Below are positions 28,347 to 32,727 of a DNA stretch of 49,631 bases, piece by piece. The position numbers and the translations under genes are program-made. Every line of letters starts with the position of its first letter. The stretch's first letter is position 1. Source of the stretch: a virus. Location: positions 1-49,631 of IMG/VR virus record IMGVR_UViG_3300022921_000031; one strand, 5' to 3'. Under the pieces are notes generated by a model. It ran no database searches. It had not been told where the DNA came from and saw only the letters and a program-made list of their open reading frames with translations.

Positions 28347-28380
28347 AAAAAAAAAGCAAGCCACAATATGCAGCTTGCTT
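28347..28380 (-). terminator. Rho-independent terminator of the leftward accessory operon
   Basis: Read leftward: stem AAGCAAGC, 11-nt loop, GCTTGCTT, then a run of T (9 in total, the first two within the stem). Stem arms are 28380-28373 and 28361-28354 and all eight pairs match. In the rightward direction the hairpin is followed by A residues, so it works only for leftward transcripts. Confidence 0.8.
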
Positions 28381-30803: not shown

Positions 30804-30853
30804 GACTAAGACGCCTCACGGCGTTTCGATCATTAAGATCTCATCAGTTAGTC
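30804..30853 (-). ncRNA. Hammerhead ribozyme A (type I)
   Basis: Minus-strand order: stem I GACUAA, core CUGAUGA, stem II GAUC-UUAAU-GAUC, core GAAA, stem III CGCC-GUGA-GGCG, then UC at the cleavage site and stem I UUAGUC. All stems pair perfectly, every invariant core base is present and stem III is capped by a GNRA tetraloop. Predicted cleavage between 30810 and 30809. It begins 2 nt after the TAA of the upstream gene (30856) and ends 23 nt before the start of the next. Confidence 0.92.
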
Positions 30854-30855
30854 TG

Positions 30856-31197
30856 TTAGCCGTGGACCTTTTGTAACGCTGTCCCTAGCTTCATGTTGGC
30901 TGCTTGCTTCTTTGAGATAGATTGATCCATCAGATCAAAGTAAAGCTCATCAAGGTCCCACATCACCTCGTCAAGATCTTTGGCGGTGAGGTCCTTAATT
31001 TTTTTATTCATAACATTGTTAAAAATTTTATTCTCAGCCTTGTTAAAGATCTCAAGAATCATTGAGTAATAATTTTGATCTACAAAGGTGGCATGTTCCT
31101 CGCAGTGGTTTTTTAATTCCTCGAGGCGATCTGCTGTAGCATATCCATTGTCTAAGATCTGCTTTTCAACGTGATTAATTTTTTGTGTTAAGTCCAT
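30856..31197 (-). CDS. Hypothetical helical protein between two ribozymes
   Basis: 113 aa, all helical, with coiled-coil character (LTQKINHVEKQILDNGYATA, EIFNKAENKIFNNVMNKKIK, LDEVMWDLDELYFDLMDQS). AGGAG 7 nt before the ATG. Hammerhead B ends 23 nt upstream of its start and hammerhead A begins 2 nt after its stop, so it would be released as a single-gene message. Function unknown. Confidence 0.6.
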   Translation of the reverse strand: MDLTQKINHVEKQILDNGYATADRLEELKNHCEEHATFVDQNYYSMILEIFNKAENKIFNNVMNKKIKDLTAKDLDEVMWDLDELYFDLMDQSISKKQAANMKLGTALQKVHG

Positions 31198-31220
31198 TAG
31201 TTTTCTCCTATATTGAATTT

Positions 31221-31285
31221 GACTAAGACCTCCTCGATTCGGGGAAAAGAGAAGGTTTCGACCATCTAGGTCTCATCAGTTAGCC
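31221..31285 (-). ncRNA. Hammerhead ribozyme B (type I)
   Basis: Minus-strand order: stem I GGCUAA, CUGAUGA, stem II GACC-UAGAU-GGUC, GAAA, stem III CCUUCUC / GAGGAGG (7 pairs, one G-U) with a 13-nt loop, UC cleavage site, stem I UUAGUC. The UAA of stem I is the stop codon of the upstream gene (31280-31282). Predicted cleavage between 31227 and 31226. The stem III loop contains the complement of the polar CGGGGAAAAGA motif. Confidence 0.9.
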
Positions 31286-31822
31286 TTTGCGGATATAGTG
31301 ACTTGGATTTACATCCTGTCGCTCTAAATATCCCCTAAGTTTTTTTACACACTCCGGTCCTACTTTCCAGTGACCCATGTTGCCAAAATCATAATTTTCC
31401 ACATGATCGTCATCTTCTTCATGACATATCGTATCTATCTGACCATCGCAAGAATGTATGTAAAAGGATTCTTTGTCCGACGCATTTTGTAACTCTTTGT
31501 TACATAGAATGCACTGATCGTTGTCGTCATGAAATGCAAGCTTGGGAAGCATTGGACTAATCTCAACAACTGGCTGTGCAAAACCAAAAATTTCTTTGGT
31601 TGCTGGTGCCGGATTATTAGCAAGCTCTTCCAGCTTATCAAGGAATAATTCTCTAATGCGAGACAGCGAGTCTGATTCGGGGCACATAATTTCTTTACCC
31701 GTGAATTTTTTTACAAGCTCCTCAATGTCATCGGTTAGTTCTGCATAAGCATCACTGGTCATTGAAAGATCATTGTGATCTTCGTAGTATTCAAAGTTTT
31801 CAAATATTTTGTCTAAATTCAT
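31280..31822 (-). CDS. Hypothetical protein with cysteine/histidine cluster
   Basis: 180 aa. The N-terminal helical half is acidic (YAELTDDIEELVKKFTG). Residues about 100-165 contain CILCNKEL, YIHSCDG, TICHEE and GHWKVGPECVKKLRGYL. The CxxC, HxxxC and later CH/C positions suggest a zinc-binding module. Its stop codon forms part of stem I of hammerhead B. AGGAG lies 7 nt before the ATG. No named family assigned. Confidence 0.6.
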   Translation of the reverse strand: MNLDKIFENFEYYEDHNDLSMTSDAYAELTDDIEELVKKFTGKEIMCPESDSLSRIRELFLDKLEELANNPAPATKEIFGFAQPVVEISPMLPKLAFHDDNDQCILCNKELQNASDKESFYIHSCDGQIDTICHEEDDDHVENYDFGNMGHWKVGPECVKKLRGYLERQDVNPSHYIRKG

Positions 31823-31844
31823 AGTTTTCTCCTTTTTAAAATTT

Positions 31845-31909
31845 GACTAAGACCTCCTTTCTCGGGGGAAGAAAGAAGGTTTCGCTCAATCAGAGCTCAT
31901 CAGTTAGCC
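31845..31909 (-). ncRNA. Hammerhead ribozyme C (type I)
   Basis: Minus-strand order: stem I GGCUAA, CUGAUGA, stem II GCUC-UGAUU-GAGC, GAAA, stem III of about 10 pairs (CCUUCUUUCU with AGAAAGGAGG, one G-U), UC cleavage site, stem I UUAGUC. It starts on the base directly after the stop of the upstream gene (31910-31912). Predicted cleavage between 31851 and 31850, giving a 28-nt leader for the next gene. Confidence 0.92.
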
Positions 31910-32281
31910 TTACCTGTAGTAGCTTTCAGAAGCTGGTGACAAGAAGCTTGGTCTGTTAAGACGCTCCATGTACTTGTTACCGCCCATCAAGTTAGTACGC
32001 TCAACCATTGGCTCGTTCTCGTAGAAGTAATCGTAAGTAACAACCTCTGAGCCACACAAACCTTCGTACATCTTAAAGTTACCGTTGTGCTCTGAGTCCT
32101 CACGGAAGCCATGCTCACGGGCATAAGTTACATCTCTGTCATACAACTTGATGTATTTATTCTTAAGTCTAGTCAAAGCAGCCTTAGCAGCTCGCTCTGT
32201 GTTCCACTCTTTGTAACCACCGTAAGATTCCATACCGTATCTCTTACCAGTAGCCTTATTAAATATTACAAATCTATCCAT
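31910..32281 (-). CDS. Hypothetical protein between ribozymes C and D
   Basis: 123 aa. FVIFNKATGKRYGMESYGGY is followed by RAAKAALTRLKNKYIKLYDR and aromatic-rich beta segments (GSEVVTYDYFYENEPM). The N-terminal pattern (strand, helix with AA...L..K) is like small phage proteins of unknown function in cyanophages and other marine phages. AGGAG 7 nt before the ATG. Confidence 0.6.
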   Translation of the reverse strand: MDRFVIFNKATGKRYGMESYGGYKEWNTERAAKAALTRLKNKYIKLYDRDVTYAREHGFREDSEHNGNFKMYEGLCGSEVVTYDYFYENEPMVERTNLMGGNKYMERLNRPSFLSPASESYYR

Positions 32282-32324
32282 AATTTTTCTCCTATGTGTT
32301 TATGAATGTTTGGGGACCATCCCC

Positions 32325-32376
32325 GCACTAGACTCCCCGAAGGGAGTTTCGACTCATTAAGTCTCGTCAGTAGTGC
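32325..32376 (-). ncRNA. Hammerhead ribozyme D (type I), overlapping coding sequence
   Basis: Minus-strand order: stem I GCACUA, CUGACGA (allowed C at position 7), stem II GACU-UAAUG-AGUC, GAAA, stem III CUCCC-UUCG-GGGAG, UC cleavage site, stem I UAGUGC. All 15 pairs are Watson-Crick. The upstream gene ends inside it: the last codons and the TAA (32357-32359) are in the core and stem II. Cleavage is predicted between 32331 and 32330. The 3' product carries a GGGGA-UGG-UCCCC hairpin before the next ribosome binding site. Confidence 0.93.
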
Positions 32377-32572
32377 TAGCAAGTTTGCGGTCAACCCTCT
32401 TTTTGAGTTCTTTAGGGCTGGTTGCAAAAATAGCCATTTGAGGAACCTCGTAGTAAGACTGCACCACATAGTCTGCGTTGAAGCTATAGGTTCTGCTGAC
32501 CTTAACTTTAACGCCCCTGTATAGGTAGTCTTTGAAGCCGCCCTGTTTGTCTTTGCTTAATGGATAATTCAT
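32357..32572 (-). CDS. Small basic protein ending inside ribozyme D
   Basis: 71 aa from the ATG at 32572 (AGGAG 7 nt upstream); the longer start at 32605 would lie within hammerhead E. KDKQGGFKDYLYRGVKVKVS is followed by YYEVPQMAIFATSPKELKKR. It may be a small beta-alpha DNA- or RNA-binding protein. Its last residues (TTDET) are encoded by the catalytic core of hammerhead D. First gene of the ribozyme-bearing operon. Confidence 0.55.
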   Translation of the reverse strand: MNYPLSKDKQGGFKDYLYRGVKVKVSRTYSFNADYVVQSYYEVPQMAIFATSPKELKKRVDRKLASTTDET

Positions 32573-32595
32573 GTTTTCTCCTATTTGATTAATTG

Positions 32596-32646
32596 ACTGT
32601 TTCATCCTTTTGGAATCATCAGAGGGACCACCCAGTCCCTTACAGT
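32596..32646 (-). ncRNA. Hammerhead ribozyme E (type III, candidate)
   Basis: Circularly permuted layout on the minus strand: stem III strand ACUG, then UA at the cleavage site, stem I AGGGAC-UGGGUG-GUCCCU, core CUGAUGA, stem II (U-U mismatch, then UCC-AAAA-GGA), GAAA, and stem III strand CAGU. Stem III is the open end, so this is type III. Predicted cleavage between 32641 and 32640. Stems II and III are short, so activity is less certain than for A-D. Confidence 0.65.
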
Positions 32647-32727
32647 TACCACTCTGATTTTGGATTCGCCTCGCCGCTTTGGAATTCTGCGGGTCATTAG
32701 GTCCCTTCCTTAGTTAATTCAAAATAC

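Follow-up and report, generated by a model that had tools for sequence, protein, structure and literature searches.

Can one stretch of phage DNA serve at once as the end of a gene and as the core of a ribozyme, and if so, which of the two roles fixes its bases? The question arose in the window, the whole 49,631-nucleotide stretch of viral DNA analysed here, since the first-pass annotation had placed the last codons of a 71-aa protein inside the core of a hammerhead (D). The features concerned are listed below, with upstream-stop positions counted from C3 of each type I element.

32594..32648, minus: type III hammerhead ahead of the 71-aa gene (Rfam Hammerhead_3, 34.3 bits, E 2e-4, below gathering score)
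32357..32572, minus: 71-aa gene P0001, no Pfam or PHROGs family (basis: ORF, homologues, codon-position differences)
32357..32359, minus: UAA stop of the 71-aa gene (TAA 32359-32357), in loop II of D
32325..32376, minus: predicted type I hammerhead ribozyme D (basis: sequence, MFE fold, homologues with stem III changes, class covariation)
32376-32371, minus: D stem I 5' strand, GCACTA
32370-32364, minus: D core CTGACGA (CUGACGA in RNA), read (a)CU GAC GA(g) = Thr-Asp-Glu
32363-32351, minus: D stem-loop II, GACUUAAUGAGUC
32350-32348, minus: D GAA
32347-32332, minus: D stem III, ACUCCCUUCGGGGAGU
32331, minus: D C17
32330-32325, minus: D stem I 3' strand, TAGTGC
32300..32324, minus: short hairpin GGGGAUGGUCCCC right after stem I of D, and the next gene's leader
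31910..32281, minus: 123-aa gene P0002, downstream of D
31845..31909, minus: type I hammerhead, core at 31903; the 123-aa gene stops (-9) immediately 5' of stem I
31221..31285, minus: type I hammerhead, core at 31279; UAA stop of the 180-aa gene within stem I (-3)
30804..30853, minus: type I hammerhead, core at 30847; stop of the 113-aa gene at -11
28354..28380, minus: terminator-like hairpin, where the small-gene operon likely ends; as a scan result no better than chance

A gene that ends inside a hammerhead

Hammerhead D has the type I core (C U G A N G A ... G A A), three stems of 6, 5 and 6 pairs around it with stem I open in the MFE fold, and the NUH triplet GUC (32333-32331) just before the 3' strand of stem I, which places the predicted cut after C17, between 32331 and 32330. 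The MFE structure of 32300-32385 is exactly this hammerhead (-27.3 kcal/mol, z -2.7), the only extra element being the short hairpin past stem I. Modelling thus confirmed minus-strand 32376-32325 as a type I hammerhead with an exact fold and a predicted cleavage site. D shares its layout, core and stem order with RAGATH-1 (RF03152) and Hammerhead_1 (RF00163), but it falls below the curated Rfam thresholds for RAGATH-1, Hammerhead_1 and HH9, scoring 27.4 bits against the RAGATH-1-hammerhead gathering score of 56.3, and an Rfam search of the window gave no match at gathering score. Note that at this score Rfam misses nearly all of the related phage elements, only 2 of which reach Hammerhead_1.

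We scanned viral contigs with two patterns in which only the core, the initial stem pairs and the cut site were fixed. In the 45 and 124 matches obtained, the positions left free by the patterns were paired in 99-100% of cases, compared to 49-69% when the partners were swapped between sequences, and the finder returned 0 matches on reversed sequence. Both results argue that the ribozyme is not a product of chance. An SD and a start codon followed 238 of 272 hammerheads, at a median of 31 nt from cut to start. In a different setting, the element of Rhizobium phage RHph_Y38 (L194, 2415-2535) is a type I hammerhead located a few bases past the 3' end of a tRNA-Pro, as if trimming the tRNA trailer.

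The 71-aa ORF (32572..32357) is preceded by the SD AGGAGAAAAC. Its differences from homologues with 76-79% amino acid identity fall 8/6/29 and 8/7/29 by codon position, indicating that it is a real gene. It runs through stem I and the core as AGC ACT ACT GAC GAG ACT TAA, so that the protein ends in STTDET and the stop in loop II lies 26 nt ahead of the predicted cut. As annotated, then, the core is read as codons, the Thr-Asp-Glu-Thr-stop reading and its coordinates are correct, and the gene stops inside the ribozyme.

D is one of five hammerheads in the window (one type III and four type I, 30804-32648), all on the same strand and each located before the SD and start of consecutive small genes. 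As in the hammerheads described as clustered in prophages, several surround single genes within one phage operon. Other phages (L115, L106, L218 and L016) also have small genes interspersed with three to five hammerheads, most of which Rfam misses at gathering score. A promoter scan gave nothing above chance. Neither the operon DNA nor the P0001 protein had a match in cultured phages, P0002 had one short match there (Sinorhizobium phage Phosso), and the six operon proteins matched no Pfam or PHROGs family. In L016 the hairpin past stem I of D is formed by other bases, with its pairing intact (GGGGAUGGUCCCC in the window, GGGAAUUAUCCC in L016).

Origin of the STTDET tail

The annotation had held that this stretch is under both coding and catalytic constraint, and had proposed an alignment of the last codons in homologues. 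These were collected by protein similarity, which is blind to the ribozyme, or via the neighbouring gene P0002. D is present in the window, L001, L002, L016, L017, L018 and L019, where the protein ends in STTDET, or in STTDETS or STTEETS when TCA replaces TAA and the next stop is UGA. Homologues devoid of a hammerhead have other ends: DMEVA (L003-L005), ERISQEVA (L006), EKISQEEK (L209), SSQNK (L199) and KLQNEEVA (L201-L202); L210 carries a different hammerhead directly past its stop. Members with and without D occur in both protein subfamilies. Since the tail is kept where the ribozyme is present and other tails are found where it is absent, it is the ribozyme that fixes the bases of the tail.

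The degree of conservation follows the same line. Between the window and L016, L018 and L019 the gene body is 63-70% identical and the ribozyme 50-51/52 (96-98%); for L016 alone the figures are 123/186 in the body, 51/52 in the ribozyme and 30/37 in the leader. Third codon positions differ between the window and L016 at 38/64 sites in the body and at none in the tail codons. Tolerated changes, seen in L018 and L019, are an Asp/Glu exchange at core position 7, which is free, and displacement of the stop by one codon. The two outcomes that would have spoken against the overlap, a protein end kept without the core or a gene stopping elsewhere, were not seen, protein end and core being gained or lost together. 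Judged from these alignments, the STTDET tail is ribozyme sequence read as codons and apparently tolerated by the protein, with no sign of a protein need. Of the proposed double constraint, what stands is that the core is coding and that a stop must precede the cut; the core codons themselves are fixed by the ribozyme alone. The coding constraint that can be shown on the ribozyme is the stop codon before the cut, not the codons of the core.

The same tail recurs in unrelated phage genes. Among the genes listed, 17, belonging to roughly a dozen families, terminate as -x[T/S/A][D/E]E-x-stop on reading the equivalent segment of a hammerhead; they include unrelated genes of 34 to 285 codons that end in STTDEA, STTDED, SLTDEG, VPTDES, STADET, SVTEEA and others. 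The tail is shared because its codons are dictated by the ribozyme (base 2.1 with C3-U4, then G5-A6-N7, then G8-A9-G), core position 7 being the sole free base, which gives Asp or Glu. In 17/17 cases position -5, the third base of the leading (Ser) codon, pairs with a matching base past the cut, C with G or U with A, so this synonymous site follows an RNA pair. Related phages can differ in the frame used: in L193 (1098), L091 and L105 the gene ahead of a T7-like RNA polymerase runs into a hammerhead and ends there, and two frames occur among them.

Stop codons and the predicted cut

If hammerheads cut messages in cells, no gene should be left stopless before a cut. In 192 non-redundant phage hammerheads we counted by frame the genes with an ATG and an SD that run into the element. 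Every one of them meets a stop before the cut, either the UAA in stem I, the core UGA or a loop II stop. Thus, of 64 entering genes, 0 were in a frame open to the cut, against 12.4 expected with frames dealt at random, and counts at minimum gene lengths of 30, 40 and 50 aa agree. Loop II carried a stop in 16/16 elements with core-reading genes, compared to 78/176 other elements (p=5e-6), and with the strictest de-duplication the counts were 0 open-frame genes against 7.4 expected (p 5e-5) and 12/12 against 45/100 loop II stops (p 3e-4); these p values are approximate, as clades share history and deeper shared ancestry is ignored. Note that assigning the upstream gene by longest ORF gave a few wrong frames (L091 and L105 really stop at the stem I UAA); the frame statistics use the ATG-plus-SD genes.

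Stops are built into these elements: the core UGA at +1 is present in every hammerhead, a UAA at -3 is common in the class, and loop II opens with a stop in 90/201. As regards a possible tertiary contact between loop II and the stem I region, loop II pentamers are biased across the phage hammerheads (TTAAT, TGATT, TCAAT, TAAAT). We also considered the likeness of a loop II TAATGA to the stop-start overlap, likewise TAATGA, in relatives without ribozymes, and rejected it as a coincidence, the pentamers varying widely. The annotation's claim that the cut follows the stop codon holds for D and for the sampled class. The simplest cause for the lack of open-frame genes is selection, since a stop beyond the cut would give a stopless message. 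All cases open to testing agree with the prediction, and this is evidence from evolution that the cutting is important in vivo.

Proposed function, alternatives and known systems

Our preferred reading, which we consider probable on the sequence evidence, is that D is a self-cleaving intergenic processor of the type I hammerhead class that splits two genes of a polycistronic message and also supplies the stop of the upstream one. Starting from the structure, the codon reading, the stop ahead of the cut and the recurrence seen in the sequences, we infer cleavage and its effect on both messages. The 71-aa gene enters D in the sole frame in which the core is readable, and the UAA in loop II closes that frame, so that STTDET, its last six residues, is a by-product of the ribozyme sequence. 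D would cut the phage RNA after C17 (32331), which would leave the folded ribozyme at the 3' end of the 71-aa message and a short leader with an SD of its own at the start of the 123-aa message. The whole array would split the operon message into single-gene messages, the downstream pieces leading with about 25-45 nt and their own SD. The absence of precisely the 71-aa gene and D from L014 indicates that a gene travels together with its ribozyme. The recurrence with unrelated genes suggests that such elements cut long phage messages to single-gene pieces while leaving the reading frame unbroken.

The annotation had also offered a link with translation, in which the ribosome finishing the upstream gene keeps the core unfolded and cleavage waits for, or drops with, translation. 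Most stops do lie within about -13 to +14 of C3, so the 5' side of the ribozyme would be at least partly covered by a ribosome terminating there. However, the stop-to-core distance varies at related junctions (+11, +14 and -8 in the P0001 family; +11 and -3 in the L193/L091 family), and ribozyme-free junctions in the same phage are equally tight (mostly -16 to +49 nt), so that packing alone explains the closeness of the stops. Since the spacing is variable and the hammerhead of phage RHph_Y38 follows a tRNA-Pro, the class as a whole cannot depend on coupling, which we regard as unlikely at D. The fuller version, a ribosome-timed combination of terminator and processor whose core would be held open until the ribosome leaves, with each message cut only once its gene has been read, strikes us as distinctly unlikely.

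It is quite improbable that the hammerheads are mainly shared recombination islands, swapping gene and ribozyme units, with cutting secondary. It is true that between the window and L018 the body is 70% identical and the ribozyme and leader 96-100%, and that in L014 (4380-4608) an empty site joins the type III hammerhead directly to the leader of the 123-aa gene, with exactly the 71-aa gene and D absent. Recombination alone, though, requires neither the strong covariation of the stems nor the kept core, and the leader of L016 is less conserved than its ribozyme. Nor does the occurrence of one tail in unrelated proteins call for a function of STTDET, such as partner binding or turnover, with protein and RNA both selecting the sequence: the ribozyme explains the recurrence, homologues of the same protein lack the tail entirely, and Glu for Asp and an added Ser occur, making such a function very improbable. 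The idea that a gene end and a hammerhead-like pair of hairpins overlap harmlessly by chance, for which the lack of an Rfam match at gathering score in the window could be quoted, is contradicted by the covariation, and also by the MFE fold, the empty reversed-sequence scan and the open-frame count; it is almost certainly wrong.

The intergenic processor that we favour has relatives among known systems. Self-cleaving RNAs of the glmS and HDV-like kinds reside within mRNA and change the fate of the adjoining gene. D, as judged by sequence, is likewise a self-cleaving-type RNA within an mRNA beside a gene, but unlike them it has no ligand, its cut would separate two genes, and the ribozyme provides the upstream stop. 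The role of hammerheads in phages is considered an open question (2017 review, PMC6155905). For prophage arrays with hammerheads clustered around single genes, mRNA processing has been proposed, and the arrays tested cut in vitro and in E. coli (Perreault et al. 2011, PMC3088659). The array described here resembles them in having several hammerheads per operon, each between small genes; that study makes no mention of stop codons, of gene ends inside the ribozyme or of a stop-before-cut rule. We found no papers on ribozyme-stop overlap in phages in the literature searched, which is not proof of absence. The array is of a known kind; for the stop-in-ribozyme arrangement and the stop-before-cut rule, the papers searched gave no precedent.

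These results explain the identical-looking C-termini of unrelated phage proteins and carry a warning for annotators, who should read such tails as ribozyme sequence. As a separate observation, an antisense ORF, probably a false gene, is annotated over a hammerhead in Flavobacterium phage elemoA (L195, 2962-3069).
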